NCBI GenBank assembly: GCA_916048095.2
Contig: OU696571.1
Span: 8,802,001-8,866,000, forward strand
DNA from: Sacculina carcini
Lineage: Eukaryota; Arthropoda; Thecostraca; Sacculinidae
DNA length: 64,000 nucleotides
Direction: 5' to 3'
Shown here one piece after another: positions 9,873 through 61,428 of this stretch. Under the pieces are notes generated by a model, which worked only from the letters and a program-made list of their open reading frames with translations, did not search any database and was not told the DNA's origin. The first letter of the stretch is position 1; every line of letters begins with the position of its first letter. Made by a program: the position numbers and the translations under genes.

Positions 9873-9884
9873 AGCTATTTCGGC
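9873..9884 (+). promoter_or_regulatory. TRIM-A primer site complementary to the tRNA-Phe 5' end
   Basis: AGCTATTTCGGC abuts the LTR end. It is the reverse complement of GCCGAAATAGCT, nucleotides 1-12 of animal tRNA-Phe (recalled sequence). The role is inferred from position and recurrence in other elements of this window. Confidence 0.7.
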
Positions 9885-10552
9885 CTTTTGTTTTTTATTT
9901 GGAAATATTGTTTATCTGCGACCCGGCTTCAGCAGCGGAGATAGTACCCTCCAGTATTTGCAGCGGCCTGGAGGACGTGGTGGAGGTGCTCGGCGGCGTG
10001 TCAGGCTGGTGTGCAGGGGGACGGCAGGAGAGCATGGTGCCGGCAGGAAGCTGCGGGGGAGCTGTGGCCGAGGGTTGCTCGTCGTCCCACCTGCACTGGT
10101 GTTGGACTCGTCGCCGGGCAGATAGAAGGTCGCTGGTGGAGGCTGCTGGTGCTGGAGGGCATGTGAGAGAAAGGAGCTGCTGAAGCCGGAGGAGAAAACG
10201 AAGGAGTTGAGACGACGGCGTGGCCTGCATGTGCGGCGACGTTCGGCTGTCGCGGTAGGGTGCTGAAGAGCACCGGTGTCGACGGAAGCATGGTGGATGC
10301 TGGGGTCAAGGTGTTGTGCCCTGTCGCAGCAGCCGGTGATGAAGAAGACGGCAGGCTGCGGCGGAGCACTGAAGAGCACGGGCGGTGGCGGGAGCGTGGA
10401 GGATGCTGGGGCCTGCCGTGTTGCGCTTCGCCGCAGCCAAGGTGTGTGCGTCTGGTGAAGGCCGTCGTCGGGTTTGGTTGTTTTTGTTTGTTTGTTATGC
10501 GTTTTTTTATTGTATGCTCTATAGTTCATGTTTCTGTAAAAACAGGTGGAGG
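9885..10552 (+). other. TRIM-A internal region, GC-rich, probably non-coding
   Basis: It begins with a T-rich stretch, then CTGCGACCCGGCTTCAGCAG, which recurs in both TRIM-B internal regions. Frames on both strands are low-complexity (Pro/Ser-rich or Gly/Arg-rich) and their stops are not conserved between copies. It ends with the tract AACAGGTGGAGG. Confidence 0.6.
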
Positions 10553-10931
10553 TGTGGTGTGATTGTGAGCGAGAGAGAGAGTGTGTGAGCGCGTTGGAGT
10601 GTCTGTGGCTTAGTGTGTGTGTGTGTGTGTGTGTTTGATTCGCGTTTGCGTTCGTGTTTGCGTTGTTTGGTGATGTGTTTGTATGTATGCGTTTCATGAA
10701 GTGTGCATGCCCCGCGGCGGCGAGCGAGTGACCGGCTCGCCGCTGATTGGTTGTGGCGGTGTGCGTGAGGACTGTGCGTGTGTGTGTCCGTTTGTGCTCC
10801 CGTGTGTCACGGTGTGAGCTGGAGTCGTGTTTGTGGTGCGATCGGAGTGTGACGTCTTGTAGGCGCGCGTGGGGCGGTGATGCCCACGCGCGCCTGTCTG
10901 TAATATAATTTACATTTTTGTTTTTGCTACA
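10553..10931 (+). repeat. TRIM-A 3' LTR
   Basis: 379 bp from TGTGGTGTGATTGTGAG to GCTACA, with a (GT)n stretch near 10615-10634 and the conserved inverted repeat at 10861-10895. Confidence 0.85.
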
Positions 10932-11990
10932 GTCATGTTGCCAATTTGACAGCTATTATGCGCACTTGCGATTACACATGACTATACACTAATTTAATTT
11001 CACTGAAGTCCAATCACAATTTATAATGCATCATATTAGCTCCAAGCATGGATGGTGTGGTTTTATTGCGTACAGTATACTGAATATAAAGGCTTTATTG
11101 TCCTCAATATTTACACATGAATTGTTCCGCACGACGGGCGGGTAAAATGCTACTGGGAACAAAGTAAACTACTGAATTTGACTGTGTAATGTAATTGGTT
11201 TAATTTCAAGCTGCATACGCTTAAGTTGCATAAGGATATGGGCTGTAATATCATGCAATGCCAACTATATGCATATGCTGTTTTAGCGGAAGCATTAATC
11301 TGGAATCATAGAGATGACAGAAAGTTTCATTGTTTTCATAGTGTTACACTTCTGAATTACTACACACGAAGGACGGGTGTGAATTTGAGCAGTATTGAGG
11401 GAAAAAACTTCGTCAATAATTAAAACAAGAATTTACAAATTTACATTTTTCTGTTGGATAAGCTTTTTGCTTTTTGATTCATTATATTTTATTAATTGTT
11501 CCGCACGACGGGCGGGTTTAAATACGAGGCTGTTCGAGGGAAAATATTGTGCCACATCTAAAATAAACACATTCATATTTAGACTTTTCTATTGGTTAAT
11601 ACTTTTTGGGTTAATATTTAATGGGTTTACTTTTTTCTTTTTAAATTTGTATTCGTTTTCTTTTATGAATTCAATATTTATTTTACTTTATTAATTGTTC
11701 TGCAAAACGGGAGGGTTTCCATGCTAGATGATGCTAATTTAGAAATATATTTTGTAAACATTATGATAGAAAATGTTAAGTAAATTTTCATTATTTAGTA
11801 TCTGAATTTTGAATTAAAAATATAGAAATTTGGATTTTTATGGGTTTACTCTTTTATTTTTTAATTCATATTCCTTTTCTCTTATGAATTGAATACAAAT
11901 TTAATAGTATGAACCGTTCCGCACGACGGGCGGGTTTACATGCTAGAACATTCATTGTTTGAATTCATACATTCATTGTTGCATGAATTC
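10932..11990 (+). repeat. AT-rich block with CCGCACGACGGGCGGGT boxes
   Basis: No coding signal. Four clear copies of the 17-bp GC box start at 11127, 11501, 11700 (degenerate) and 11919, each preceded by GAATTGTT-like sequence and followed by AT-rich DNA. A fifth, more degenerate copy is near 11370. The first part, TGTTGCCAATTTGACAGC at 10936, recurs with one change at 17752. Confidence 0.6.
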
Positions 11991-11991
11991 A

Positions 11992-12271
11992 TGGTTTTTC
12001 ACCCTCCTCGTCTAACTCCACCTACACTTCCATTTCCTTTACGTTCGTCAGTGCGAAACTTGGGTGTAATTATGGATTCCTCCCTCATCTTTAGCAATAA
12101 TATTAGTTCTGTCACACGTACATGCCGTCATATTCTACGCGCGCTGTATCCCATACGTCCATTCCTCGACCAAGCGTCTGCCATCAAGCTCATCAAAACA
12201 CTGGTTTTTCCTCGTATAGATTATTGTATTGTTTTATATTTCAACACTCCGCGATGCTATTTGAAACCATT
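11992..12271 (+). pseudogene. CR1-b: CR1/L2-type LINE RT fragment, part 1
   Basis: Encodes HPPRLTPPTLPFPLRSSV, then NLGVIMDSSLIFSNNI and ALYPIRPFLDQASAIKLI. This is the thumb region downstream of the RT catalytic box, closely matching CR1-c. It is cut at CCATT by PheLTR-1 and continues at 15627 in the same frame once the insertion is disregarded. The 5' end is truncated. Confidence 0.82.
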
Positions 12272-12721
12272 TGTGGTGTATTACTGTGGTATTAGTGCGT
12301 GTGTGTGTGCGTTAGGGATATGGTGTTTGCATAAGCAAGTGTGTATGTGTATGTGAGTGAAAGTGTGCGTGTTGGTGTGGCTGTGATCCTTGCGCGAGCG
12401 GTAGGTGTTTGTTTTGTGAATGCGTGCGTGTCTGGTTGTACAGGCAGATGGTGTGCATGTATGTGATTGTGTGTGGGAGCGCGCGTGTACTGTACTGTGT
12501 TGGTAACTAGGGGAAATGTGGAGCGTTCGAGGGCAGTTGGTTTAGTGGTGTGAACTGGGAGCGTGGGGCGAACGAGTGCGTTGGCAAGAGGGTATCTGTG
12601 TTGTGTGGAGTTAACGCTTTGTTGCAGGATCGTGTAGATTCGTGCGTGGATTCGTGGTCATAACATATCGCAGTTTTCATGACGTTATTTTTTCTGTACA
12701 TCGTTGTTGAATACATTCACA
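12272..12721 (+). repeat. PheLTR-1 5' LTR
   Basis: 450 bp; it matches 15176-15626 apart from a few small differences. Confidence 0.9.
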
Positions 12722-12733
12722 AGCTATTTCGGC
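12722..12733 (+). promoter_or_regulatory. PheLTR-1 primer site complementary to the tRNA-Phe 5' end
   Basis: AGCTATTTCGGC abuts the LTR end. An inverted second copy (13067-13078) marks the far end of the inverted gag block. Confidence 0.7.
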
Positions 12734-13063
12734 CAGTTTTGCAAGTTTCCTCAGAGCGGACATATAAACGTCCGCGGTTTCACCGCTCCACTTGCTGTAT
12801 GCGAATCTTTCGTATGCGGTGAACCGATTGGCGGAAAAAGCATCGAGGAGTTTCGTTCTGACGTCTTCGTACACTTCCTTCTTCTGCTCGTTCATCTCAT
12901 TATACACATCGTAGGCTTTTCCGTCAAGAAAAAGCGGCAGCACGTTGGCCAAATCGTCGATCTTCTGCAGTTTTGCAACTCTTTCGAACTTGTTTATCCA
13001 CTGAACGACGTCCTGCCCTCCATCGAACTGTCGCAGGATCTCATGAAGCTTCATATTTGCCAT
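12734..13063 (-). pseudogene. PheLTR-1 gag N-terminal part, inverted
   Basis: The minus strand reads MANMKLHEILRQFDGG from 13063, through DVVQWINKFERVAKLQ and AYERFAYSKW, to ALRKLAKLA. It then runs into the primer-site sequence at 12733. PheLTR-2 gag has the same layout (MANVKLTEVVRTFDG, WLDKFDLIV). The normal gag should follow the 5' LTR on the plus strand; here it is antisense and lacks its C-terminal half and zinc knuckle. At the junction the gag codons read CTGGCCGAAATAGC, so gag and primer site may have shared short homology there. Confidence 0.85.
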
Positions 13064-13078
13064 TGTGCCGAAATAGCT

Positions 13079-13386
13079 TGTGAATGTATTCAACAACGAT
13101 GTACAGAAAAAATAACGTGATGAAAACTGCGATATGTTAATGACCACGAATCCACGCACGAATCTACACGATCCTGCAACAAAGCGTTAACTCCACACAA
13201 CACAGATACCCTCTTGCCAACGCACTCGTTCGCCCCACGCTCCCAGTTCACACCACTAAACCAACTGCCCTCGAACGCTCCACATTTCCCCTAGTTACCA
13301 ACACAGTACAGTACACGCGCGCTCCCACACACAAACACATACATGCACACCATCTGCCTGTACAACCAGACACGCACGCATTCACA
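13079..13386 (-). repeat. Inverted partial PheLTR-1 LTR
   Basis: The reverse complement of the last 308 bp or so of the PheLTR-1 LTR, preceded by an inverted primer site (13067-13078). The first 142 bp of the LTR are missing. Confidence 0.85.
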
Positions 13387-13390
13387 GCAT

Positions 13391-13640
13391 CAAGCATCGA
13401 GTTCGCCATTTTCAATGTGCTCTCACTGACAACGTCCTCCCATGCACACTCCTGTGATGACCTCTTCACGAAACTGGTTGCCACCCTTAACCAACCCGCT
13501 ATGTGGGAAGCTGGTGGGGCACTACCCTGTAGCGGGTTGGTTAAGGGTGGCAACCAGTTTCGTGAAGAGGTCATCACAGGAGTGTGCATGGGAGGACGTT
13601 GTCAGTGAGAGCACATTGAAAATGGCGAACTCTATGCTTG
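13391..13640. repeat. 111-bp palindrome at the pol fold-back point
   Basis: Arms 13391-13501 and 13530-13640 are near-perfect inverted copies around a 28-bp spacer. The right arm and spacer are in-frame pol (KLVGHYPVAGWLRV). The left arm is the same pol segment inverted and joined to the inverted LTR. Confidence 0.88.
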
Positions 13641-15121
13641 GAATGGTTGAAGAATGTGACCCTGTTCGAGGAAAGTGGTATGTACCCAAATCAAAGAAAG
13701 GAAAGGTGTGGTGTGATGCCAGCAGTTTGGCATTGGGTGTTTTGCTGGAAATAGACGGATCAGGAGTGGAAGACGCATCATGGTTGCGCAAAACGAATGA
13801 CGCCAATCACATTAACCTTGTCGAGCTGGACGCCGTACTGAAGGGAATCAATCTAGCTGTCAAGTGGGGTTTGGACGAGATTGAGGTGATTACTGATTCA
13901 ATGACAGTTATGGGGTGGCTGAGGTCTACGCTTAGTGGTGAGCGCAGAGTGAAGAGTAGCAGTGCGGCTGAAGTGCTGATTCTGCGCCGGCTGGGCCTCC
14001 TGAGCGCCATGGTCACCGAGCTTGCGATCACAATCAAACCCTCATTCATAAGGTCTGAAAGTAACAAAGCGGATAGGCTAACGCGTGTTCCCAAGTCATG
14101 GCTGGAACTACGCCGTGAGAACAGTGACGAAATATGTGCATTGACACTTCATGAAATGCATGCACAACATCATTTTGGAGTGGACAGGACTCTCTCGTTG
14201 GCGAGAATGGTGGACCCAGATACGACGAGGTCCCAGGTAAAAAGATGCGTCAGAGAGTGCGTTCAATGCCAGTCGATTGATCCGGCGCCGTCCAGCCATC
14301 AACCTGGACATCTGAGTGTGGACGAAAACTGGTGTCGACTGGCGGCAGATGTGACCCAGTACAGAGGCCAGTCTTATCTGACAATCGTGGATTCTGGGCC
14401 TTGTAGGTTCGCCGTGTGGAAAAGAATACGGTCGGAAAACGCTGACGATATCGCGAGGGTAATTCACGAGCTTTTCCTTGAACGTGGACCGGCTGCAGAA
14501 CTTCTCCTAGACAACAGCCCAGCTTTCAAATCATCAAAGCTTGCGGATGTTTGCGATAGATGGGGTGTGAAGCGCAGATATCGTGCAGCATATAGACCCT
14601 CAGGTAACGGAATCGTCGAGCGGCACCATAGGACGATCAAGCGTATGGCGGAGCGGTGCAGAACAACACCTATCGAGGTGTTGTTTTGGTACAATATGGC
14701 CCCAGCAGATTCCAACGAGGCGACGGTGTCCCCCGCGCATGGCATTTATAAGTATCAGTGGCGACATCCGTCGGCGAGGAAGGATCTTCCTGAGGAAGAT
14801 GGTGGTGTTTGGCGTGTTGGTGATCACGTCTGGGTGAAGCCGCCGGATGCACGTTGTACGACGCGCTGGAGAAGAGGTCGCATCACCGGAGTAGTTTCGC
14901 CCAACAACGTCGAAGTTGACGGTGTGTCACGCCACGTTCTGGACATTCGGCGAGTATTAGGGAGGGAGTCCGAGGACGAGAGCGAATGTTCACAGGACGA
15001 GACGGATCCGGTGATTTCCCAAGAACGTGTCGAGAACGTGGATCAAGAGCCGGAACCCGAGTTTGTGTCAAGGTCAACGCGAGAAAGACGAGCACCGGCG
15101 TGGCTCGACGACTACGTATAA
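13500..15121 (+). CDS. PheLTR-1 pol, RNase H-integrase part
   Basis: An open frame from pol sequence GKLVGHYPVAGWL to the TAA at 15119-15121. RNase H is marked by VWCDASSLALGVLLE near 13710, INLVELDAVLKGINLAVKW, and the later acidic residue in EVITDSMTVMGWL. Integrase has an N-terminal HHFGVDRTLSLAR with CVQCQS, and core residues in ADVTQYRG, LLLDNSPAFKSS and GNGIVERHHRTI. The C-terminus is acidic then basic (STRERRAPAWLDDYV), as in PheLTR-2. No protease or RT precedes it and it has no natural start, so it is probably not expressed. The RNase H style is not that of Gypsy-1 or Gypsy-2, so I treat these elements as a separate gypsy-related group. Confidence 0.85.
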
Positions 15122-15175: not shown

Positions 15176-15626
15176 TGTGGTGTATTACTGTGGTATTAGT
15201 GCGTGTGTGTGTGCGTTAGGGATATGGTGTTTGCATAAGCAAGTGTGTATGTGTATGTGAGTGAAAGTGTGCGTGTTGGTGTGGCTGTGATCCTTGCGCG
15301 AGCGGTATGTGTTTGTTTTGTGAATGCGTGCGTGTCTGGTTGTACAGGCAGATGGTGTGCATGTATGTGTTTGTGTGTGGGAGCGCGCGTGTACTGTACT
15401 GTGTTGGTAACTAGGGGAAATGTGGAGCGTTCGAGGGCAGTTGGTTTAGTGGTGTGAACTGGGAGCGTGGGGCGAACGAGTGCGTTGGCAAGAGGGTATC
15501 TGTGTTGTGTGGAGTTAACGCTTTGTTGCGGGATCGTGTAGATTCGTGCGTGGATTCGTGGTCATTAACATATCGCAGTTTTCATCACGTTATTTTTTCT
15601 GTACATCGTTGTTGAATACATTCACA
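15176..15626 (+). repeat. PheLTR-1 3' LTR
   Basis: 451 bp, preceded by the purine tract ATGGGGGCG and followed by the CCATT duplication. Confidence 0.9.
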
Positions 15627-19346: not shown

Positions 19347-19590
19347 TGTAAGGAAAAATATGTATTCACAAAACACGTCGGTATGATTTCAACTCCGAAC
19401 AACAACAACCCCGCACATTGTGAGAATTCAACATTCCCTCATCCGTTCCCATGGCAACATCAAACATTAGTCAATACGCAATACACAATTCTACAGCTTA
19501 ATTATATATAACGTGGCTTCATACGCAAGACTCTTTCATTCATACAAATGCACACAATAAGTAAATATCATAATGCTAATACATACAACA
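19347..19590 (-). repeat. PheLTR-2 3' LTR
   Basis: 244 bp; identical by eye to 23183-23426. Confidence 0.9.
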
Positions 19591-19609: not shown

Positions 19610-22474
19610 TCATCTGACATAGTCGGCCATCCACACTGGTGGCCGTCTGTTACGCTGTGATCTTCTCGGAACTTCCACTGTATTGCCCTCTGATTCAACG
19701 GCTGACCGGTCGTCTTCTGAATCATCTTCAATGAACAATCGACGGATATCAAGGACGTGTCTCGGAACACCGTCAACATCCACTATATTTTCCGAACGTA
19801 CACCAGTGACTTTCCCCTCTGTCCACCTGGACGTGCATCGTCTGTCGCTCGGTTTCACCACCACCGTATCTCCTAACTTGTATCGCGAATTGGTGGTGTC
19901 ACGCATCTGTGTTGTTTTGGCAGCAGGATGCCTCCAGTGGTAATTAAATATCGCTTCCGATGGTGCTGTACTGCCATTGGCATTCTCCTTTGCCGCCAGA
20001 TTGTACCAGAATACCATCTTCAGTGGACTGTCTCTGGATCTTGATGCCATCACCTTGATTGTGCGGTGCATACGTTCTGCAATACCGTTCCCTGATGGTC
20101 TATAGGCCGCCCTGTAATGCTGAAGTATATTATATGCCTTGCACAATTCTGCAACCTCGTAAGATCGAAACGCACGACTGTTGTCCATAAGAAATTCTTC
20201 CGGTGGCCCTCTCTCTAGGAGTATTTGCGTCAGATGCCGACATATATCTTTGGCGTTTTCAGAGGCCACTTCACGCCATATCGCAAAGCGACTTGGACCA
20301 CAATCAATTAGTGTTAGATATGACTGTCCACGATAGTACGTCACATCCAACGCTAAGCGTGTCCAATTTTCACGAACACTAAGTTCACCGGGCTCGTGAC
20401 ACACAGGAGCTGGGTCTACCATCTTACAGACTCTACACCGCTTCACAACGGCTTCCACACTTTCTCTTCGCACCGAAGGGTCCACCAATCTCGCCAAATA
20501 CAGTGTTCTCTCAGTACCAAAATGGTGGTCCGAGTGCAGTCTTTCAATGTCGACGACTGGCGCTATTACAGCAGCCACTGTATTTGCCCTCATCCAAGTC
20601 TTCGGAACGCGTGTTAATACATCAGCCTTGTTTTTCTCCGATGGAACCAGTGTCAAAGAAATACTAAGTTTCAACTCATCAACGAGTTCTTTCAAAATTG
20701 ACAGTCGTCGTTTCACAAGTATCTCTGACATTCCCGTCACCTTCATTCTTCTATCACCTTCCAGAGTCGAGCGTACCCATCTCAAAACAGTGGCAGAATC
20801 AGTATACACTTCAATCACTTTCAAGTCCCACTTTAGAGCCAGGTTGACGCCTTTCAGTACAGCATCTAATTCAGCAAGGTTTATATGCTGACAATCATCC
20901 GACTTCCGGAGCCAAGCTGCATCCTCCACTATTTGGCCACAAATTTCTACAGCAGCACCGACAGCTAAGCTACTCGCATCGCACCACACACTGCCTTTTG
21001 GTGTCGATGACACATAAAAAGTCCCTCTCACAGGATCTTCTCGAGCAATTCGCGTCAGCATTTCTTTGAGCATTCCTACGGCTGTGCTTCCTACCTCATC
21101 TTCCCATCGTTGTCCCTCGCTTGACCGCTTAATATAACTACTCGCCACTCGAAGCCATCCACATACAGGGTAATGACCCACAATTCTGCCACAGATTGAA
21201 AACATCTCTCTACGGGTCATTTTCATTTTTATTTCATCCTCAGTCGGAAGCACGTTTCCTCGACTGAAACACACTTTTCCTCCCCTACGCGCCACCTTCA
21301 GACCCAGGACACGTCCTCCATCCAATGACTCCGGAGCTTTCGCCTCGAGTCCGTACTGGGCTAAATGTTTGGTCACTGTTTCCGCTGATACAATGTATTC
21401 ATTTACTATTACATCATCAATGTAACAATCAGTACCAGATTTCAAACGCGCATCTTGCTCCAAAACTTTCTTCACAATTGCTGTCATAATTTTCGGTGCC
21501 GAGCTTAGACCGAACCCGAGCCTGGTAAGATAATAAACAACACCTCGGAAAATCACTCGTTGATACGGCCACAACCGCCTGTCAACCTGTATCTGCAAAT
21601 ATGCAGACTTCAAATCAACAATTTTCAAGTTTCTCGACATGCGTCTCCAATTTCTCAGTGTTTCCGTACACACCGCAACATCAGCACCTGGATGACTCTC
21701 CACTGACCGATTTAACTCTCGGTAGTCTAGAACAGGTCGCACCTTATTTTTATTTACCTGCACAACTGTCATCAAAGGTATTATTCCTCTTCTGTCGTTC
21801 TGGTTTTCACATCTCTTGAGCCACCCCTTGTCAATCCATGAAAACAATTCCTCTTCCCATTGCGCCTTGACTTCGTTGGTTCTGTTACTTTGATAGCAAT
21901 CGATCTTATTCATTAAATCAGGTCTCTCGCCATCCTTCCAACACCATTTGACAACCCATGATGATCCATCAAAATCAGCGACAAAATCATTGTCATTGAT
22001 CGAAAGTTTTCTTGGGGTCACGACGTTTGCTGCACATTGCGCGCGTTCAATTGCTGGTTCACCGGAAAGTCCGGCCGTTAGTTCGTCCACGTTGGTGTTT
22101 TTAAATGATACTACCCCGTCTTTCCACGCAAATCCACCGACCACCTGAATGAAGTCCAACCCAGCTATTGCATCCACACCTTGAAGCAACTTTCCAATCA
22201 CTATGCACTTCACCTTCTGTGAGACACCATTCACGCTTAGACAAAGATTCACAGTGCCTAACGTATCCACTTCTTTTCCATCAACTCCCATCACGACGCC
22301 CTTACTCAACGAATAATATGGTAGCACCCATGAACCAACTAATGACTGTGTGCATCCAGTATCAATGAGAATCCTACCGGGGCGACCACCAATAAAACCA
22401 TCTACAATTGGAAGCGCCATTAATGAGAACTTGGAGAAATTTCCGGCGCAGAAACTTCTCCCTTGGCGTTTCCC
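19610..22474 (-). CDS. PheLTR-2 protease-RT-RNase H-integrase
   Basis: An open frame of about 950 residues with no start of its own, entered from gag at the heptamer 22468-22474. Domains in order: aspartic protease (RILIDTGCTQSLVG), RT (VRPVLDYRELN; catalytic YIDD in CYIDDVIVNE at about 21410-21430), RNase H (VWCDASSLAVGAAVE, INLAELDAVLKGVNLALKW, YTDSATVLRW) and integrase (HHFGTERTLYLAR and CRVCKMVD for zinc; catalytic DVTYYRG, LMDNSRAF and NGIAERMHR). The C-terminus is acidic then basic (RRSQRNRRPPVWMADYVR). All catalytic residues I can identify are present. The RNase H and integrase styles differ from Gypsy-1 and Gypsy-2 but match PheLTR-1 and IleLTR-3. Confidence 0.9.
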   Translation of the reverse strand, partial: GKRQGRSFCAGNFSKFSLMALPIVDGFIGGRPGRILIDTGCTQSLVGSWVLPYYSLSKGVVMGVDGKEVDTLGTVNLCLSVNGVSQKVKCIVIGKLLQGVDAIAGLDFIQVVGGFAWKDGVVSFKNTNVDELTAGLSGEPAIERAQCAANVVTPRKLSINDNDFVADFDGSSWVVKWCWKDGERPDLMNKIDCYQSNRTNEVKAQWEEELFSWIDKGWLKRCENQNDRRGIIPLMTVVQVNKNKVRPVLDYRELNRSVESHPGADVAVCTETLRNWRRMSRNLKIVDLKSAYLQIQVDRRLWPYQRVIFRGVVYYLTRLGFGLSSAPKIMTAIVKKVLEQDARLKSGTDCYIDDVIVNEYIVSAETVTKHLAQYGLEAKAPESLDGGRVLGLKVARRGGKVCFSRGNVLPTEDEIKMKMTRREMFSICGRIVGHYPVCGWLRVASSYIKRSSEGQRWEDEVGSTAVGMLKEMLTRIAREDPVRGTFYVSSTPKGSVWCDASSLAVGAAVEICGQIVEDAAWLRKSDDCQHINLAELDAVLKGVNLALKWDLKVIEVYTDSATVLRWVRSTLEGDRRMKVTGMSEILVKRRLSILKELVDELKLSISLTLVPSEKNKADVLTRVPKTWMRANTVAAVIAPVVDIERLHSDHHFGTERTLYLARLVDPSVRRESVEAVVKRCRVCKMVDPAPVCHEPGELSVRENWTRLALDVTYYRGQSYLTLIDCGPSRFAIWREVASENAKDICRHLTQILLERGPPEEFLMDNSRAFRSYEVAELCKAYNILQHYRAAYRPSGNGIAERMHRTIKVMASRSRDSPLKMVFWYNLAAKENANGSTAPSEAIFNYHWRHPAAKTTQMRDTTNSRYKLGDTVVVKPSDRRCTSRWTEGKVTGVRSENIVDVDGVPRHVLDIRRLFIEDDSEDDRSAVESEGNTVEVPRRSQRNRRPPVWMADYVR

Positions 22475-23167
22475 GGCCTGCATGGACACTCTCTAGCCAA
22501 ATGGGTTGGCTCGCCACAAATCCAACAAAGTCTGTTGTTGGATTGGTTGTTGTTGTTCCGATTTGGCATTCTCGGACAGAATCGTGCGACGTGCGTGCCG
22601 CGGCGTTCCAAACACTGAACACTCTGCCTGGGTGCAGGTCCATTCCTTGGTCCGATGACAGCAACTGCTGCTGATTGATTCTCGTGGAGCTCCGACATGA
22701 GGGCTCTCGTGCGCTCCACAACAGAAGACAAATTCATGCTTTCAATGCCAGCTGTCGCTCTGAGTTCTCGCGACACCGCCGACGGCAAACCGACCACAAA
22801 TGCTCGCAGCAGCAGTATGTTGTTGGCTATGCCGGCAAGGCGAGCCAACTGGCGCAACTCTGCCATGTATACATCCACAGGCTCGTCTCGCCAAACTCGC
22901 TGCGAGAATTGTTCATACGCCTTGAAGGGATTCACTGAATACGCGTTCAGCAACGCCAACTTGATCTGATGAATATCCCGTTTTTTGCTGCGCACTGAGC
23001 TCAGTATACACGGAAAGTGCGCTACCCTCGAGAAACATCGGTAACACTGTTTCAGGGTTTTCCACGCCTCTCAATTGGACGATCAAATCAAATTTGTCCA
23101 GCCAGTCATTCACATTGCTGGAGCCATCAAACGTCCGCACAACTTCTGTCAACTTAACATTAGCCAT
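22420..23167 (-). pseudogene. PheLTR-2 gag with a frameshift in an A run
   Basis: The ATG at 23167 lies 3 nt past the primer site and begins MANVKLTEVVRTFDG. The first 60 or so residues match PheLTR-1 gag. The frame then changes at a run of six A (minus strand; 22981-22986) and continues as IHQIKLALLNAYSVNPFKAY to one zinc knuckle, CWICGEPTHLAREC. It ends at 22420. PheLTR-1 gag is continuous across this point, so the shift is a lesion or a sequencing error, not a programmed site. The last 55 nt overlap pol, where the separate GGGAAAC site lies. Confidence 0.85.
22468..22474 (-). promoter_or_regulatory. Probable -1 frameshift heptamer G GGA AAC
   Basis: On the minus strand GGGAAAC lies in the gag-pol overlap. 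In the gag frame it is read C-CG|G GGA AAC, the phase needed for tandem -1 slippage. The same heptamer, phase and neighbours recur in IleLTR-3 (62170-62176). Confidence 0.65.
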
Positions 23168-23170: not shown

Positions 23171-23182
23171 GCCGAAATAGCT
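23171..23182 (-). promoter_or_regulatory. PheLTR-2 primer site complementary to the tRNA-Phe 5' end
   Basis: The minus strand reads AGCTATTTCGGC directly after the LTR end CCTTACA. No TGG-type 3'-tRNA site is present between the LTR and the gag ATG 3 nt further on, so no room exists for another primer site. Confidence 0.72.
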
Positions 23183-23426
23183 TGTAAGGAAAAATATGTA
23201 TTCACAAAACACGTCGGTATGATTTCAACTCCGAACAACAACAACCCCGCACATTGTGAGAATTCAACATTCCCTCATCCGTTCCCATGGCAACATCAAA
23301 CATTAGTCAATACGCAATACACAATTCTACAGCTTAATTATATATAACGTGGCTTCATACGCAAGACTCTTTCATTCATACAAATGCACACAATAAGTAA
23401 ATATCATAATGCTAATACATACAACA
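23183..23426 (-). repeat. PheLTR-2 5' LTR
   Basis: 244 bp; identical by eye to 19347-19590. Confidence 0.9.
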
Positions 23427-30107: not shown

Positions 30108-30118
30108 AGCATTCACAA
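30108..30118 (+). repeat. Junction repeat AGCATTCACAA after I-LINE-1
   Basis: The first of three identical 11-bp junctions (also 35905-35915 and 41704-41714), each following an (AAC)n tail. Probably a serially duplicated target. Confidence 0.7.
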
Positions 30119-30455
30119 CGATTCTGGCGCGAAAGGGGGTTGAGGGCTGTGCTCAAATCTGCTTTTGTGGAGTTTCTCGGGTGTTTTTGTGGTTAATTTC
30201 TGCCGTGTTAGGATAAACAGGTGTACATATTCCAAAATTTTAGTTTTGTTTTCGTCCAAATTCTATATTGTATTATATGGTGTATTCCTTCCTGGTCTGT
30301 CTCTACTATGTAGATTTCATGGCTGTTTTATAAAATAGCCGCGTACCACGTACTTTAGGCCAAATAAGTCTAGCTATCTCGGCTCTTCCCACTACTCTTT
30401 TTTTTGTGCATCATATACAAAGTTTCTCTGACAGAACTCAAGGTCTCCCCACCCA

Positions 30456-41281: not shown

Positions 41282-41703
41282 TTACTTCAGAAAATTGTCA
41301 TCACTGCAAATTGTCTACAATAAGTAATATATCACTTTCTCTGATTTATTTTCCTATGTTTCTTTCTTGATTGAAAAAAAAAATCACACAAAAAACAAAC
41401 AAAAAAAAAACAACAAAAAAACGCCGTTGCGTCATGTATCTGTTTTTATTTCTCACTATGAACTCAATTCAATTATATCTTCATTTCAACAAATATCTAG
41501 TATCTGTACATATAAGGATAATCGTATTACTGCTCTAGTTATTCCCTCTAACTTGAGTTATTTTTATAGCTTTAGGTTAAGGCAACACGAGTAGCATGCA
41601 TCTATGATGCTTGTGTAACAAAAGAGTTGCATTGTGTGATCCCTGCATCTGAGCCTAACCTGTGCTATATGCAGTAACCAATAACAACAACAACAACAAC
41701 AAC

Positions 41704-41714
41704 AGCATTCACAA
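41704..41714 (+). repeat. Junction repeat AGCATTCACAA after I-LINE-3
   Basis: Read on the minus strand (TTGTGAATGCT followed by TTG units), this is where the CR1-c 3' UTR meets its (TTG)n tail. It suggests the three I-LINEs entered that tail. Confidence 0.6.
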
Positions 41715-41745
41715 CACATACACACACAATATCCATTTACAACTC

Positions 41746-42025
41746 TGTGGTGTGATCGTGTGCAGTGAGAGAGAGTGTGTGTGTGAAAGATTGTGAGTGC
41801 GTGAACGTGTTAGTGTGTCTATATGTGATCGTGTATGGTTGAATTGTATATTGCGTGCGAGTGTGTATAGCTGTGTCGGTAAGTGTGTGCAGTTGTTTCG
41901 GTGTGTGTTTGTGTATGCGTGGTGTTTGTAGTGCGATCGGAGTGTGATGTCCTGTAGGCGCGCGTGGGGCGGTGATGCCCACGCGCGCCTGTCTGTAATA
42001 TATTTGAGTTTCTGGTTTTGTTACA
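41746..42025 (+). repeat. TRIM-B 5' LTR
   Basis: 280 bp, TGTGGTGTGATCGTG to TTGTTACA, with the conserved GC hairpin at 41956-41990. Confidence 0.9.
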
Positions 42026-42037
42026 AGCTATTTCGGC
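42026..42037 (+). promoter_or_regulatory. TRIM-B primer site complementary to the tRNA-Phe 5' end
   Basis: AGCTATTTCGGC directly follows the 5' LTR. Confidence 0.7.
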
Positions 42038-43125: not shown

Positions 43126-43137
43126 AGCTATTTCGGC
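43126..43137 (+). promoter_or_regulatory. Second primer-type site in TRIM-B
   Basis: AGCTATTTCGGC directly after the internal LTR, as after the outer 5' LTR. Confidence 0.65.
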
Positions 43138-43813: not shown

Positions 43814-44093
43814 TGTGGTGTGATCGTGTGCAGTGAGAGAGAGTGTGTGTGTGAAAGATTGTGAGTGCGTGAACGTGTTAGTGTGTCTATATGTGATCGT
43901 GTATGGTTGAATTGTATATTGCGTGCGAGTGTGTATAGCTGTGTCGGTAAGTGTGTGCAGTTGTTTCGGTGTGTGTTTGTGTATGCGTGGTGTTTGTAGT
44001 GCGATCGGAGTGTGATGTCCTGTAGGCGCGCGTGGGGCGGTGATGCCCACGCGCGCCTGTCTGTAATATATTTGAGTTTCTGGTTTTGTTACA
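43814..44093 (+). repeat. TRIM-B 3' LTR
   Basis: 280 bp, identical by eye to 41746-42025; hairpin at 44024-44058. Confidence 0.9.
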
Positions 44094-51497: not shown

Positions 51498-51806
51498 TGT
51501 GAGACAAGAGTTTGGCGTTTCAGTCTTGGCGTAATTTGGCAACATTGTCTTTATGATGCGGCTCCAAACGTTGCGAGCATGTTACGTGATGTGTAGTTAT
51601 TGTGCAATGGTATGTGTTTGTTGTCCAAGTTGTATGCTGTTCAATTAGTTCGATATTGTATGTTCCCATTCTATTTCTATTCATGAACTCAATTCGTTAT
51701 TGTTAATCGCTGGGTGTTTACGTTTCCTATTTACAGGTCTTGTAACTTATCCGATATTCTCGTTACTAATACAGCGTTGGAGCGGGCCGCTGTGTTCCTT
51801 ATGACA
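51498..51806 (+). repeat. Gypsy-2 3' LTR
   Basis: 309 bp, TGTGAGACAAGAG to TTATGACA, preceded by the purine tract AAGGGGGAGTAAT and followed by the AATG duplication. Confidence 0.88.
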
Positions 51807-52426
51807 AATGTAAAGCGACATCTATTGTTATCAGTTTGCTTAAGTTTTTTGCGACTTTATTGAACATATCGGTGTTTAACAATTTTGTGTTTGTGCGCTA
51901 TTTGGATTATTACGTATTAAATGTTAGATTAACTTGTATGGCAGAATTTCGTTATAGCTTTATTTTCTTCCTTGAGAGAGCTTAATTGTGCCGCAATTGC
52001 ATCGCTTTTGCGCAACCCTGAACACGTTGTGTTGGTTGAATTTTGCGTCTACACCATTGAATTTTTTTGCACCTGTGAACCTAAGAACCTGAGAACGCCA
52101 GAAGTTGTAAGTTTTCACCTTTTTGTACGTCAAGTTGTACTGATATTTGTTTGTTGTATTATTTTCATGTTTATGCCACTCCTGATGCGGTGGTCTCTAA
52201 TAATGCTCTTGAGTGCTCAGTTTGGTAAATTTGATATGTAATTTGGTGAATTTGATACTTTAATTCGGTTTGTTTTTATGTGTTCTTTTGTTCCAGTTAG
52301 ACCGTTTATAATCGCTTTGTACCGTTTTTTACCGTTGGTACCCATTGCTACCCCTATGAGTGCATGAAACAGTGAATACAACGCGTGCCAAACCTCTGGT
52401 GTCACTTGCGCCCTCTGGGCGTAATA
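51807..52426 (+). repeat. BEL-1 5' LTR, second part
   Basis: 620 bp matching 57050-57670 with a few substitutions and one indel. It begins with the AATG copy created by Gypsy-2 insertion. Confidence 0.87.
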
Positions 52427-52461
52427 GTCCAATTTTGGCTCTGCATCATAGAACAACCCAG

Positions 52462-54445
52462 ATGGAAGACGCACCTGCGACGTCCAGTTCCAGAAGACGG
52501 CTTGGTGCTGCAAAGGGCAGTATCACTAAATGTATGAACACCATAGATAGACTCTTTTAAAGATAGATCTAATGTACTGTGTGTTAGAGATATGCTCGGT
52601 TGTATTGATGAACTGTTAAAAACATATGATTGTGTATGTAACGAGTTGTTAAGCTCACTGGAAGGATCAAATGATCATGAATCTATTGCGTATGTTGTAA
52701 ATGGGAGGAAACAGTTCCTGTCTGAGGTTCAGGGTTTCCAATCAGCCATTTCAATGTGGTTGGAGCAGGAAGAGATCGATGATGAAATTTCAGTGCAACC
52801 CAAGAGCGTCACAGAAGTAATGACGAGTTCACACCATGCAGAATCAGATAATCCAGGTGTCTGTGAGAGAAACGAAGAATATGAAAAACATTCTGGTGCC
52901 TTAGCTTCAGAAAATGAGATGTTGAAGATGAAGACGGCTCAACTGCAGATGGAGTTGAAGTTCAGTAAAGAAAGAATGTTGATGATGGAAGAGAACCAAA
53001 GGCTAAAGGAAGAATTGAACTCACTCACGGTGAATCACATTGGGAAGGTAAATGAGCACGTTGAGCGGCGGCAAGGCACTAAGTATGTACGATTAGAGAG
53101 TACACCTAGAACCGATATCGAGAAAACATCAAGGGTCTCTTGGGATCCTTCTGCAGTGGAAAGGGAAGCTCAACCTTCTGATTCTATTGCACAGACATTG
53201 ACTCAGATGTTGGAGATATCAAAGTTACAGCAGAAATCATTGGTTGAGTCATTGCTGTTGCCAAGAGGGGAACTGCAAAGGTTCTCCGGCAATGAATTGG
53301 AATACTGGCCTTTTATCAGATCCTTCATGGACACTGTCGATTGTTTATCAATACCAGATGCTCAGAAACTAGCTTGTTTGAGAAAGCATTGCCAAGGCCC
53401 TGCAGAACTCGCTCTCAGATGCACCACGTATATGCCAGCAGAAGAAGGTTATGCTAAGGCTTTTAGAATTCTGCAGGACCGTTTTGGTAATACCTATAGC
53501 ATAACTTGTGCATGGATTAAGAAGATCACACATCAGCCAGTTGTGAAGGGGAGTGATGAACTCCAAGCATTTGCAGATAATTTGAGGTGTTGTGTTGAGT
53601 CGTTGAAGGAGATGAATTATCTAGACCAATTGGTCAGTGGTGACATCATGGTTAAATTGGTTGATAAACTTCCACATTATTTGCAAGTTAGGTGGTTACG
53701 AGTGAATCATGACATTCGTTCTTCAGAGGCTAGAGGTGCCAACGTGCATGAGTTGCTTCAGTTTATAGAAAGGGCTGCTGAAGAAGCATCAGACCCAGTC
53801 TATGGCTCACTAGTTTCCAAGAGGTACAAGAATCCTACGCAAGAAAATCCGAAGAGGGATCGTGGGAGCTTTGCTTCCAGTGCAACTCCTCGAGACACTG
53901 TGAAGTTTGGAGAGCAAGTTTCGAGACACAGTGAGCCTGCAGGTCAATGTCCTTGCTGCAATAATGGCCATGCTATTTTTCGGTGTCCGCAATTTAAGGC
54001 CATGCGTATCAAAGATAGGTGGCAGCTTATCCGTTCGAAGGGCTTGTGTGCAAATTGTTTCAATACAGGTCATCTTGGGAAGGATTGTTACAGAAGTTTC
54101 ACATGTGGGATCAATGGCTGTAGTATGAAGCATAGCAGATATCTACATTTTCAACCCAGAGAATCCGATGCTTCTGGACCTAGTACATCTGGTCTACAGA
54201 ATCTTCAGAACCCTAGTGGTCAGAGCAACAGCAACTTTTCCTGTAGCCAAGGTGGCAAACTGGCACTGCCAATCGTGCCTGTGAGAATCAGGTGCCCAGG
54301 CTCTGATGAATATGCAGACACATATGCTTTACTGGACCCAGGTACAGATACTTCATACTGTTCACAAGGTATTGTCGATAAGATAGGTGCTAGATCGAGG
54401 AATGTCAACATGGAGATAACCACAATAGCACAGGCTAGGATGTAA
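52462..54445 (+). pseudogene. BEL-1 gag and protease start, with frameshift and stop
   Basis: An ATG at 52462 starts MEDAPATSSSRRRLG. A T run at 52555-52558 breaks the frame, which resumes as DMLGCIDELLKTYDC and is open to 54445. Features: a long coiled coil (ENEMLKMKTAQLQMELK and on), a BEL-type gag core (LPRGELQRFSGNELEYWPF), zinc knuckles (CPCCNNGHAIFRCPQF, CANCFNTGHLGKDC) and a protease motif with DPGTDTSYC in place of the usual DSGS-type site. The TAA at 54443 falls inside the protease region, and homology continues in the same frame. Confidence 0.83.
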
Positions 54446-56872
54446 GTTCAGTCCAGTGTAGTAACGTTGTTGGTGTCTGATATTAATGATGAGCTAGACC
54501 CAGTGTGCATCCCAGAAGTTGCTGTTCGGCCATGTTTGAATTTGGATTCATCTAACATGCCAAGTGTTACAGAAGTCGAACGATGGCCTCATTTGAGAAA
54601 CCTGCAATTACCAAGGTTGAATTTGGATAATGTTCATGTGCTGATTGGTCAGGATTGCTCCGACCTACTCATACCTGACCAGGTCAGGAAAGGAAACCCA
54701 GGATAGCCATTTGCTATACACACAGCGCTGGGCTGGGTGATAAACGGACCAGTAGGACTACCCAGATCAACGACTAGTGTCTCATACTTCACACGAACCT
54801 CTGAACCGGTGTTGAAAAATCTGTGGGACCTATAAGGTATCAACTGCGAAACTGAGTGCATGTCTCCTGAAGACGTGAAGACTTTGTCATTCTGGGAATC
54901 TGGTATGCAAATTGACAATGGGCGCTATTCTCTGGGAATCCCATTTAAAAGACCAAATCCTCAGTTGAAAAACAACTTTCGAATGGCAGAGAATCGATTA
55001 ATGTCGTTGCGCAAACGATTGGAGAAGGACGACTCACTTAAGACAGCATATAGTGAAGAAATTCAGAAGCTGCTCACCAATGAATATGCTGAGAAAGTTC
55101 CACAGGAGGAAATTGCACGATCAGACGGTAAGGTGTATTATCTACCCCACCATCCGGTGTATAATACTCGAAAACCCGAAAAAACTAGAATAGTATTCGA
55201 CTGCGCAGCAAAGTTCTGTGGGTCATCATTAAACGATCATGTGCTACAAGGACCTGTTCTTGGTAACAACCTCATCGGCGTGCTCTTGTGCTTCAGAGAA
55301 GGATCAGTGGCATTCAAGGCTGACGTAGAATCAATGTTCCACCAAGTTAAGGTGCACAAAGGTGACTGTGACGTTCTCCGTTTTCTATGGTTTGGAAATG
55401 ACGACCTTGGTGCCCGGGTTGAGCACTATAGAATGACTTCACACCCATTTGGCGGTGTTTGGAGCCCATCTTGCGCCAATTTTGCTATGCGGCATGTGGT
55501 AAGGGAATTCGAGCATGAGCCATCGGCTGAAGTGAGAAACTCATTGCTCACAAACTTCTACGTCGATGATTGCTTAAGGGCAACAGAGGAAGACACTACC
55601 GCTGTTGGTATTGCCGTGGGACTGAAGGACATCTTGTCGAAGAGGGGTTTCCGGCTGACGAAGTTAGTTTCGAACTCGCAAGACCTGTTGGAGAGCTTTC
55701 CCCGCTCTGAATGGGGCGAATCATTGCGTTTGGTCGACGTTGAGTTGAACCAACTACCCACTGAAAGATCCCTTGGCATGTTGTGGGAGCTGAATGAAGA
55801 CTGCCTCACATTTGATATACAGATCAAGAGTAAGCCAGATACCAAACGAGGCGTGTTGAGTATGCTCAGCACTCTGTTCGATAGGAGGCCTGAACACCAG
55901 AAGATGGCTGAGCTTCCACGTATCAGGACAACTCCCTTTGAACCACCGTTCAGTCATGTTGGAGTGGACTACTTTGGTCCATTCTTGGTCAAACGTGCTC
56001 GCTCGAAAGTGAAGAGATACGGGTGCATATTTTCGTGTATGGCCACGAGAGCAGTGCACCTGGAAGTTTCACACAGCCTAGACACTGATAGCTTCATCAA
56101 TGCTTTGATGAGGTTTGTGGCGAGGAGAGGAGAGCCTCGGCAGATCGTGTCCGACAACGGCACCAACTTCGTCGGAGCACATTTGGAACTACAGCGTGCC
56201 GTGAAGGATTGGAACCATCAGAAAATACATGAGCATCTCCTTCAAAGGGGTATCGATTGGAAATTCATCCCTCCTAGTGCATCGCATCAAGGCGGCGTTT
56301 GGGAAAGACAGATCCGGACTGTGCGCGCGGTCTTGATGGGCGTCACGAAGCAGCAACAAATGGATGACGAAACTTTGTTAACCTTCATTACGGTAGTAGA
56401 AGGTATAATCAATGGCCGCCCATTCACCAAACTATCTGATGACACCACTGATGAAAGACCTTTGACACCGAACCACATTTTAATGCTGAAAGCAGGTCCA
56501 GCAATACCACCAGGTGTATTTGAGTGCACTGATATGTACCGTCGTCGATGGAGGCAGGTGCAGTACTTGGCTGATCTGTTTTGGCGCAGCTGGCTACGTG
56601 AATATTTTCCTGAGCTACAGCGTCGTACGAAGTGGGTTTCCCAGAGACCGAACGTTAGTATTGGAGATCTCGTGCTATTAGTTGATAGCAACTCGCCCAG
56701 AAATCATTGGCCTCTCGGGCTAATTGAAGAAGTACAGAAGGGAGAAGATGGTTTAGTCCGCTCTGTGAGACTGAGAACCACCACAGGCTCTTATGAGAGA
56801 CCCGTGACACGGATTTGCTTGCTAGAGGGGGCACATGAGAGTTCGAATGGGGTGGGTGTTAAGCAAACCTAG
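54446..56872 (+). pseudogene. BEL-1 pol: RT and integrase core, internally deleted
   Basis: One frame with stops at 54704-54706 and 54833-54835, then open to 56872. RT is BEL/Pao type: VYYLPHHPVYN, TRIVFDCAAKF, AFKADVESMFHQV and catalytic YVDD in FYVDDCLRA. After RGVLSMLSTLFD the text jumps straight to a segment before the integrase core (MAELPRIRTTPFEPPF, GVDYFGPF, VSDNGTNFVGA, GGVWERQIRTV). RNase H and the integrase zinc-binding domain are therefore gone through an in-frame deletion of perhaps 350-450 codons (family comparison). A C-terminal BEL integrase tail (VSIGDLVLLVD) is present. Confidence 0.85.
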
Positions 56873-57009
56873 AATCCATCCAGTGAGCCGGTGTATGTAT
56901 TGATTATGTCTGTACCGTGTTTCGTAAATATCTCTTAATATTGTACCTTGTCGTTGTGCGTTACACTACGTGTTTGATTGAATGCCTCTGATCGAGCCAT
57001 TGGGGCCGC

Positions 57010-57670
57010 TGTAACGCCCAACGGGTCGCTGTGCGGGTACCCACGTACCAATGTAAAGCGACATCTATTGTTATCAGTTTGCTTAAGTTTTTTGCGACTT
57101 TATTGAACATATCGGTGTTTAATAATTTTGTGTTTGTGCGCTATTTGGATTATTACGTATTAAATGTTAGATTAACTTGTATGGCAGAATTTCGTTATAG
57201 CTTTATTTTCTTCCTTGAGAGAGCTTAATTGCGCCGCAATTGCATCGCTTTTGCGCAACCCTGAACACGTTGTGTTGGTTGAATTTTGCGTCTACACCAT
57301 TGAATTTCTTTTGCACCTGTGAACCTAAGAACCTGAGAACGCCATAAGTTGTAAGTTTTCACCTTTTTGTACGTCAAGTTGTACTGATATTTGTTTGTTG
57401 TATCATTTTCATGTTTATGCCACTCCTGATGCGGTGGTCTCTAATAATGCTCTTGAGTGCTCAGTTTGGTAAATTTGATATGTAATTTGGTGAATTTGTT
57501 ACTTTAATTTGGTTTGTTTTTATGTGTTCTTTTGTTCCAGTTGGACCGTTTATAATCGCTTTGTACCGTTTTTTACCGTTGGTACCCATTGCTACCCCTA
57601 TGAGTGCATGAAACAGTGAATACAACGCGTGCCAAACCTCTGGTGTCACTTGCGCCCTCTGGGCGTAATA
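57010..57670 (+). repeat. BEL-1 3' LTR
   Basis: 661 bp, TGTAACGCCCA to TGGGCGTAATA, followed by TATGT. A weak purine tract (ATTGGGGCCGC) precedes it. Confidence 0.88.
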
Positions 57671-59499: not shown

Positions 59500-60005
59500 G
59501 TGATATTTCCTCGTTCCTCCATTGCTCTAATTAATGCTTTTATTTTCCCCCATCTCAATTATTGCTCCTCTTTGTTTTATTCTCTACCAAAAAAGACATT
59601 TCTTCCTTCCAATCTATTCTCAACCAATCGTGCCGTTTTGTTTTCAGACTTCCTATCCGTCATCCCACCTCTCGATACCTAAAAATATTGAGATGGCTTC
59701 CTTTTAAATATATGACCCAACACAAAATATGTTGTCTCACTTTCAAATTGATCAACTACCCCTACCCTCCACCCTATCTGAAGGAGCTGGTAGTGCCAGT
59801 CTCACACAACACTAACACTCGATCATCTAGTGCCCTTCTAGAACACCGAGCAGTTTCCGAATCATCATGGTCTTCCAAATCCTTCCAATACATTTCCCCC
59901 CGTCTGTTCAATAAACTTCCGCGTTCAATTACATCTTCCAGCTCCTATAAATCTTTCAGCAGCAAATCATATAAATATCTTTTGGATGTGTACATAGATT
60001 CTTGA
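59500..60005 (+). pseudogene. CR1-d: C-terminal fragment of a CR1/L2-type LINE ORF2
   Basis: Starts around SSIALINAFIFPHLNYCSSL. The frame changes at a run of six A (59589-59594) and continues ISSFQSILNQSCRFVF, LRWLPFKYMTQHK, SSWSSKSFQYISPRLFNKLP to the stop at 60003-60005. Motif order matches the end of CR1-c ORF2, but the sequence is more distant, so this is a second CR1-type family. Catalytic residues are not included. Confidence 0.8.
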
Positions 60006-60207
60006 GCCCACACCGATATTATTCGTTTTTCTGTAGTATACGTGTTTTTGTGTGACTCTTGTTTGTCTTATTCCGCTGTGAGCCCAAGTTTATTTATGAT
60101 GCATTTTCATTTGTGTGTTTATTGTGTGATTTGTATGTATATTTTCATCCATGCCAATACTTTGTTGTATAAAGTGGCAATACATTTCTGATTTCTGATT
60201 TCTGATA
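60006..60207 (+). other. CR1-d 3' UTR with ATTTCTG tail
   Basis: The 3' UTR ends in ATTTCTG repeated three times (60185-60206). Short direct repeats at the 3' end, instead of poly(A), are typical of CR1-type LINEs. Confidence 0.7.
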
Positions 60208-60415
60208 TGGTGTTTATTTGTGATGTGGTGTTAATGTGTGATATGGTGTTAATGTGTAATATGGTGTTAATGTGTGATATGGTGTTAATGTGTGATATGG
60301 TGTTAATGTGTGGTATGGTGTATATCTGCGTGTGTCATTATCGTTGATGAGTGATATGGTGTTAATGTGTGGTATGGTGTATATCTGCGTGTGTCATTAT
60401 CGTTGATATAGAGTG
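60208..60415 (+). repeat. 18-bp minisatellite
   Basis: About seven units of ATATGGTGTTAATGTGTG, followed by a duplicated longer unit containing TATCTGCGTGTGTCATTATC. Confidence 0.9.
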
Positions 60416-61189
60416 AATATTGCCCATGGATTTGCTTTAAGATCGATTATTCAATATTCTCATGTGAAAGCGTGTCAATTCATTGATTTCTTGGCACCGC
60501 TGAGAAATCTTATGAATCCATTGGTTCGAACAAATTTAATGTCAGGAAGTCGATATAAGCGAAAATGAAAGATTTCGGATTGATAAAAACACGCATTTGT
60601 CCTTCTATCCGACATTAGTTCCCCACTTAGCGACACTTACAATTGACAAATCAACACTTACAAACACACTTACAATATCTATCAGCGGATAATTAGCGCA
60701 TGTTTCGGACCGCTGTTCTATGTGATATTTAAGCATAATTAACCATCACATTTATTGTTGTTTGTCAATGCTGGAATTTATGCTCAGTTATTGGCTTTGT
60801 ATTTCGCAATGTTGTATTCGTGAAGTGTGTAAACACGTTTTTGTCGACATGTTGATGGGCTGCAGCATGTTGTGAATGATGAATTATATAGCGTACCCGT
60901 GTCTGAATTCACTGTGACAAGTAATTAATGAAACATGTCATATTGGCTTCTATATTTGACCGTTTTCTTGTTGTTAATTCGCACGCTTGGTACAATACAT
61001 GATCGTAAACCTCCTGGATTTTGTTTGTATTAGGTTGTAAAAAGAATTGTTAAGCATTATACAGCTTCTAAATGCAAGGTTTCATTCAAAACTGGGAGTA
61101 TTTGTGAAAATAATGCACCGGCGTACGCATAATATCAACTAACAGTGCACCGCAACACATACACACTGCACCGACGTTGGCCGAACGCT
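60416..61189. other. No feature recognised
   Basis: AT-rich DNA without coding or repeat signals that I can support. It may include the start of the IleLTR-3 LTR. Confidence 0.4.
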
Positions 61190-61416
61190 GTGACGTCACA
61201 AAATCGTGAAACGGCCTTGTATCTAGGTGGCATTGGGTGAGCAGTATCGTTGTGAGAGGCGGACGGAGAGGTGCGGTCGAGTGGTGTTTGTGTGTATGTG
61301 ATTGCGTGTACGGGCGAGGTGTATTGAGCGTGAGCCCTGCGGGCCATCGAGTGTTTTCGCGTTTGTTTGTGCCTTGCATTTAATACATTGTTCATTTGCG
61401 TTCGCGCCGTTATACA

Positions 61417-61428
61417 AGCTAACCGGCC
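61417..61428 (+). promoter_or_regulatory. IleLTR-3 primer site complementary to the tRNA-Ile 5' end
   Basis: AGCTAACCGGCC directly follows ..ATACA. It is the reverse complement of GGCCGGTTAGCT, nucleotides 1-12 of animal tRNA-Ile(AAU) (recalled sequence). No TGG-type site is present. Confidence 0.68.

Follow-up and report, generated by a model that had tools for sequence, protein, structure and literature searches.

LTR retrotransposons of Sacculina carcini carry candidate primer-binding sites for the 5′ ends of two tRNAs

Three primer types have been described for long terminal repeat (LTR) retrotransposons, namely a whole tRNA, half a tRNA and a self-primer, and the elements of a plant-wide survey are reported to use all three. 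For the self-priming element Tf1, a review describes pairing of the first 11 nucleotides (nt) of the mRNA with the primer-binding site (PBS) and RNase H cleavage between bases 11 and 12. Half-tRNA priming is described as confined to the Copia superfamily, and a 2024 study of terminal-repeat retrotransposons in miniature (TRIMs) discusses tRNA 3′ ends and anticodon loops. Here we analyse a 64,000-nt stretch of the Sacculina carcini genome (GenBank assembly GCA_916048095.2, contig OU696571.1, positions 8,802,001–8,866,000 of the forward strand; hereafter the window) in which five LTR elements, PheLTR-1, PheLTR-2, IleLTR-3, TRIM-A and TRIM-B, carry a 12-mer exactly complementary to nt 1–12 of tRNA-Phe or of tRNA-Ile(AAT). 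Judging from the sequence, these 12-mers are very probably minus-strand PBSs that pair with the 5′-terminal 12 nt of one or the other tRNA. A primer site for the 5′ end of a tRNA was not described in any of the open-licence literature matches listed, which does not prove its absence from print.

A first-pass annotation of the window had placed six such sites directly behind LTRs, and exact matching finds all six there, strand included. Their position behind an LTR stands for PheLTR-1, PheLTR-2 and TRIM-B, whose boundaries fit. In PheLTR-1 (plus strand), the site (12722–12733) lies 0 nt from the 5′ LTR (12272–12721), which is a 98.9% direct repeat of the 3′ LTR (15176–15626), and the 5-bp target-site duplication (TSD) CCATT is present on both sides. 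PheLTR-2 lies on the minus strand, with LTRs identical at 244 of 244 positions (5′ LTR 23183–23426, 3′ LTR 19347–19590), the site at 23171–23182 and, as the annotation had said, a gag ATG 3 nt on; a clear TSD was not found for this element, and its 3′ flank is a TA repeat. TRIM-B (plus strand; LTRs 41746–42025 and 43814–44093, a 100% direct repeat; TSD AACTC) is a mosaic element, with one exact site behind its 5′ LTR (42026–42037) and a second (43126–43137) adjoining an internal LTR that ends at 43125 by LTR similarity. The position is less firmly established in the two remaining elements. TRIM-A has an exact site (9873–9884, plus strand) straight after the LTR end ACA, but its 5′ LTR (9591–9872) is truncated at the 5′ side; it forms a 99.3% direct repeat with a 3′ LTR at about 10553–10931, the start of which was set from the AACAGGTGGAGG tract just before the LTR. 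In IleLTR-3, where the site (61417–61428, plus strand) matches the host gene sequence exactly, the LTR is unproven in this copy because the 3′ LTR falls outside the window. The sequence behind the LTR starts with AGCTA rather than TGG in the sites read, in keeping with the earlier remark that the usual site is missing. A canonical TGG or tRNA 3′-end PBS was not found at the LTR, more distant places being covered only by the pairing test with tRNA nt 13–76 described below. With up to two mismatches allowed, the Phe 12-mer has eight matches in the window (six exact and two with one mismatch), a number reached by 3 of 100 shuffles; the Ile 12-mer has one exact place.

Far larger numbers emerge from the whole 264-Mb assembly (43 contigs), with the same letters read backwards as the control. 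The Phe 12-mer, AGCTATTTCGGC, occurs 2021 times (1005 + 1016) versus 5 for the control, and the Ile 15-mer ACAAGCTAACCGGCC, which is ACA followed by the Ile 12-mer AGCTAACCGGCC, occurs 368 times versus 0. These counts bear out the view that chance is an unlikely source of the two tRNA matches. ACA precedes 17 of the 18 Phe sites in the fetched DNA, although it was not part of the Phe search. Within 114 kb of contiguous DNA, ACAAGCTA occurs 11 times, seven of them at known sites and four followed by other letters. A search with ACA+AGCTAYMCSSSC, limited to three other tRNAs (the Lys(TTT) and Cys 12-mers from host genes and an Ala 12-mer), gave five matches versus three for the control, none of them equal to the Lys(TTT), Cys or Ala 12-mers.

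The sites stand in diverse sequence surroundings. When 53 sites were clustered on their flanks by single linkage, with tRNA-gene loci L069–L075, other tRNA-gene matches and the chance match L082 set aside, 17 groups resulted at E 1e-5 and one fewer (16) at E 1e-3; eight of these contain Phe sites only, seven or eight contain Ile sites only and one is mixed. Outside the 12-mer and the preceding ACA, the flanks are little conserved between groups (a comparison over 19 groups, among them the tRNA-gene group and L082). Eight of the 11 two-LTR sites tested combine an exact 5-bp TSD with an LTR that abuts the 12-mer; for this test and that of self-complementarity, the tRNA-Ile gene loci L069–L078, L082 and L149–L156 were set aside.

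The most direct evidence on the function of the 12-mers comes from a TRIM family in which both sites stand in tandem, Ile first and Phe second, in the layout ..TTTTACA|AGCTAACCGGCC|TGTAACA|AGCTATTTCGGC.. (the Phe site of L024 and L032 has one change, AGCC). In four two-LTR elements (L019, L024, L028 and L032), the LTRs end at TTTTACA, before the Ile site, and the TSDs are AATAT, AGAAA, CTAAT and GTAAC, respectively. Three solo LTRs (L009, L016 and L023; TSDs AAATG, CGGTA and GTAAT) end 19 nt further on, at TGTAACA, immediately ahead of the Phe-site position. Perfect 5-bp TSDs thus flank seven of seven loci of the family. That the LTR end shifts with the 12-mer marks the 12-mer as the priming site and sets the 3′ end of the primer at about tRNA nt 12. 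Because the 5′ region of the transcript would be the same for both ends, the LTR length of each insertion would report which tRNA had primed it, making the family a natural assay of primer choice. Element counts do not measure how often each site is used, because short solo LTRs would lack the 15-mer and so escape the search. Integrase trimming of the retroviral type (2 nt) would move the primer end to nt 10. However, the dinucleotide immediately preceding the TG that opens the 3′ LTR is variable (CG, AG, GA and GG), whereas the AG behind the U5 end is constant, as pairing with the tRNA demands, in sites that were picked by the 12-mer; this combination argues against such trimming.

Switching between tRNAs is also apparent among elements with pol. 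In a tree of 22 protease and reverse transcriptase (RT) N-termini (19 from Ile and 3 from Phe elements; 22 of 25 rows were kept after the removal of near-copies), Phe and Ile elements are intermixed, monophyly of the Phe elements is rejected (p-AU 4e-5), and the starred branches force at least two primer changes. Register, length, position at LTR ends established by TSDs, displacement of the LTR end with the site used and the change of tRNA are all read directly from the DNA.

A sample chosen by RT rather than by site led to the same sites. The query was a 150-residue RT piece of IleLTR-3; of 2925 candidate places, 150 were scored, ranked by likeness, and the sample comprised 48 places on contigs C1–C4 and C6, for which the list of Ile sites is complete up to C6:11450429 (one RT place past that point, C6:11835599, was set aside, as were those on the remaining contigs). 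In 31 of the 48, an exact Ile site with ACA stands 1199–1525 bp upstream on the same strand; one further place (C1:5056312) has an Ile site at 481 bp and another (C1:7030387) a Phe site at 1249 bp. Eight more places were read, revealing two exact Phe sites, two Ile 12-mers after an altered ACA and one Ile site with one change. A recognisable site was therefore present in 38 of the 41 places examined (35 Ile, 3 Phe; seven unread places are outside the 41). Genome-wide enrichment, the 16–17 flank groups, the RT-chosen sample and the dual-site family together support the central proposal of the first-pass annotation, according to which the 12-mers serve as primer sites and pair, in one register, with the 5′ ends of two different tRNAs.

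The identity of the tRNAs is firmest for isoleucine. Ten identical host tRNA-Ile(AAT) genes were found, all beginning GGCCGGTTAGCTCAGTTGG; nt 1–12 of each, GGCCGGTTAGCT, are exactly complementary to the Ile site (10 of 10). One Ile-site element (L076) lies near a tRNA-Ile gene in a tRNA cluster on contig C30. The claim for phenylalanine holds as far as the canonical animal 5′ end is concerned: two published Drosophila tRNA-Phe probes end ...GAGCTATTTCGGC, which confirms that end in another animal. From the sites, nt 1–12 of the host tRNA-Phe are predicted to be GCCGAAATAGCT.

Several observations weigh against our interpretation. Neither four pattern searches nor a BLAST search located a host tRNA-Phe gene in the assembly, so the Phe match rests on the Drosophila probes; the gene may be absent from the assembly or have an atypical sequence, and a search with RF00005, which scored 63 of 15013 candidates, says nothing on which tRNA genes are absent. 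Most Ile loci were retrieved through the 15-mer itself, some singleton loci, L001 and L004 among them, are unproven as LTR ends, and 3 of the 11 two-LTR sites lack an exact 5-bp TSD. In the RT-chosen sample, places were ranked by how closely they resemble an Ile element and the query's own copy is counted, and three of the eight RT-defined misses that were read show no site within 105 bp. Only three Phe rows entered the tree, all on long branches flagged by treekit. None of the 61 matches to the 15-mer in IMG/VR stands at an LTR, in that the preceding 25 nt are never repeated exactly in the locus, and we attribute these matches to chance; scanning viral and prokaryote contigs for RT returned no relatives.

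How a tRNA 5′ end could supply a primer is a separate question, and in the model that we prefer the RNA would be the tRNA itself. The 5′ strand of an intact tRNA would open and anneal to the 12-mer, and the element's RNase H would cut the tRNA at 12/13, the end of the short RNA duplex, freeing a 3′-OH. Minus-strand synthesis from this 3′-OH at tRNA nt 12 would copy U5, which would end directly at the site for that reason, and plus-strand copying of the primer would halt at tRNA nt 1, restoring exactly 12 nt. By analogy with Tf1, we give the idea that the element's own RNase H cleaves the template-bound tRNA an even chance of being correct. The broader proposal, about which our confidence is equally divided, would be a fourth class of LTR-element primer: an intact host tRNA held on the template through its 5′ acceptor strand and cleaved there by the element's RNase H to a 12-nt primer, with two-site elements choosing a tRNA at each replication and recording the choice in LTR length.

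The closest competitor, suggested by the first-pass annotation, is that the host supplies a free fragment of the tRNA 5′ end, 12 nt long or longer and trimmed, which primes with no cutting on the template. It would yield the same sites and boundaries, and we regard it as possible yet unlikely. Fragments of about 35 nt from the 5′ side of tRNA-Phe have been reported in Drosophila, which speaks for it. A cut at exactly 12/13 in two different tRNAs is not known to be among the common fragment ends, which counts against it. The assembly, for its part, holds only two tRNA-Phe-like pieces detectable by BLAST, in L079 (reverse, approximately 1501–1536) and L080 (reverse, approximately 1501–1530), both within inverted rearrangements of elements of this group. 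Both start exactly at nt 38 and they end at nt 67 (L080) or, with mismatches, at nt 72 (L079); the L079 piece meets the element through TTTCGGC, which is common to tRNA nt 66–72 and the primer site. Base 37 of tRNA-Phe is modified, and we infer from these two events that RT may have switched template onto the 3′ strand of the tRNA, to be halted at the modified base or by a cut there. The pieces suggest, from two events only, that more tRNA than a 12-mer is present during copying and that its 3′ part is available as a template, contrary to the free-fragment model. For tRNA-Ile, no pieces of this kind were found in the assembly, only the 10 intact genes.

The primer-site reading, common to both models, was also weighed against explanations in which the tRNA 5′ end does not prime. 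A whole tRNA might prime from its 3′ CCA end elsewhere, the 12-mer being only an auxiliary pairing region of the kind reported for the bipartite primer sites of Ty1 and Ty3. We consider this very unlikely: the LTR end sits at the 12-mer and moves with it, and in 16 cluster representatives no pairing with tRNA nt 13–76 exceeded the control within 60 nt upstream and 100 nt downstream (a test in which the greedy clustering both splits and merges related copies and L069–L078 and L082 were left out). Self-priming by the 5′ end of the element's own RNA, with the tRNA resemblance a coincidence or an old capture, would fit the similar primer length of Tf1, 11 nt. Across 48 sites, however, the longest complement of the site within 600 nt upstream measures 4–8 nt versus 4–7 nt for the reversed control, so self-priming finds no support in the sequence, and it would leave two unlike 12-mers that both equal a complement of tRNA nt 1–12; we judge it highly improbable. 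Equally improbable is retention of the 12-mer for another purpose, such as recognition by integrase or another protein at the LTR end with a tRNA likeness due to chance or ancestry: both site types do share ACA|AGCTA, but the seven bases past AGCTA differ by type and are the complements of two tRNA acceptor strands, and the U3-side bases vary as described above where those past U5, in sites chosen by the 12-mer, do not.

The elements are LTR retrotransposons by structure, with direct LTRs of the form TG..CA, TSDs, a polypurine tract and gag-pol genes encoding RT, RNase H and integrase; the TRIMs lack pol. Their domain order, protease–RT–RNase H–integrase, is that of Ty3/Gypsy (Metaviridae), with weak matches for the protease. 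BEL/Pao elements have the same order. The RT is divergent, with weak matches to RVT_1 and HIV-2 RT as the best PDB match (E 3.4e-8), and 'Ty3-like' here refers to domain order. In Pfam scans, the pol open reading frame (ORF) of PheLTR-2 (19610–22492, minus strand) encodes RT, DUF7047, RNase H and integrase, and its gag-like ORF (22420–23070, minus strand) a weak zinc knuckle under the Pfam cut-off. In IleLTR-3, the gag ORF (61334–62257, plus strand), identified by zinc knuckles and gag homologs, is a stop-to-stop frame that crosses the primer site, and the pol ORF (62164–63909, plus strand) encodes a weakly matching protease, RT, DUF7047 and an RNase H-like RVT_3 domain. PheLTR-1 retains a plus-strand pol fragment (13430–15121) with DUF7047, RVT_3 and integrase. 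DUF7047, which lies between RT and RNase H in both the PheLTR-2 and IleLTR-3 pol ORFs, is annotated in nearly all of 120 relatives among the matches listed, nematode and crustacean ones included, and seems to mark the lineage of a divergent pol. Named gag or pol relatives, known here as proteins only, come from Trichuris, Trichinella, the crabs Petrolisthes and Portunus, and the barnacle Amphibalanus. The TRIMs probably depend on this DUF7047 clade of LTR retrotransposons. Of 173 proteins compared with peptides encoded by the primer sites, one matched, P0124 (a TRIM9-like protein), and was rejected as a chance match. A TRIM9/67-like exon has named matches of only about 33–38% identity across most of its length.

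PheLTR-1 also contains an inverted segment (13067–13386, minus strand) that is a 99% inverted repeat of 12415–12733 and comprises an LTR end with its primer site (13067–13078), followed by the start of gag. This site, the seventh exact site in the window and the sixth of the Phe type, was absent from the list of the first-pass annotation. Between the two sites of the 12722–13386 region gag lies in antisense, an arrangement that resembles a product of template switching or self-integration. Elsewhere in the window, 29905–41715 holds two near-identical tandem copies of a long interspersed nuclear element (LINE) encoding RT, endonuclease and RNase H, with a unit of about 5.8 kb, a third copy of the shared end that is 215 bp long, and a tail rich in AAC. 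The two one-mismatch Phe places, at 30372 and 36175, lie inside these copies, away from LTR ends, and were rejected as primer sites. A probable BEL/Pao element (51804–57670; DUF5641, RT and integrase) has LTRs of about 623 bp, and neither 12-mer stands behind its LTR.

If the priming proposed here is correct, fragments from tRNA 5′ ends would become candidates for regulating transposition, as is described of 3′ fragments for mammalian elements. Programs that look for a PBS only through tRNA 3′ ends, TGG or self-complementarity would overlook these elements and report them as lacking a primer.

Cryptococcus Tcn2–5 are reportedly the subject of an earlier proposal of a new priming mode. The Sacculina elements resemble canonical tRNA 3′-end priming in that the site lies directly behind the 5′ LTR, the candidate primer is a host tRNA and elements switch between tRNAs; they differ in pairing with the opposite end of the tRNA, over 12 nt, and in a site that does not open with TGG. 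With the half-tRNA priming described for copia and Ty5 they would share a primer made of a tRNA without its 3′ end. The known cases of that type, as described, pair at the anticodon region, whereas here no such PBS was found, the site being the complement of tRNA nt 1–12 with the primer ending at nt 12, and the domain order is Ty3-like. A resemblance to tRNA away from the 3′ end has also been described for the fungal element FunCo1 (an internal region of tRNA-Lys) and for two bivalve TRIMs (the central part of tRNA-Tyr; their authors identified no PBS); unlike the sites here, these matches, as reported, involve internal or central parts rather than the exact mature 5′ end. The Helenus TRIMs of animals and fungi are likewise short, gene-less LTR elements that depend on autonomous partners, but the animal ones are described as using tRNA 3′ ends and having 4-bp TSDs, and the fungal ones as using mostly anticodon loops. 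Similar in the form of the primer are the self-primers of the Tf1/sushi group (Schizosaccharomyces pombe Tf1 and S. japonicus Tj1), for which a very short primer from the 5′ end of an RNA beside U5, cut by RNase H at the end of the duplex, is described; here no upstream self-complement exceeds the control, and the RNA proposed is a host tRNA. Use of the extreme 5′ end of a tRNA would correspond to none of the three known primer types and would join tRNA priming with duplex cleavage of the Tf1 type.

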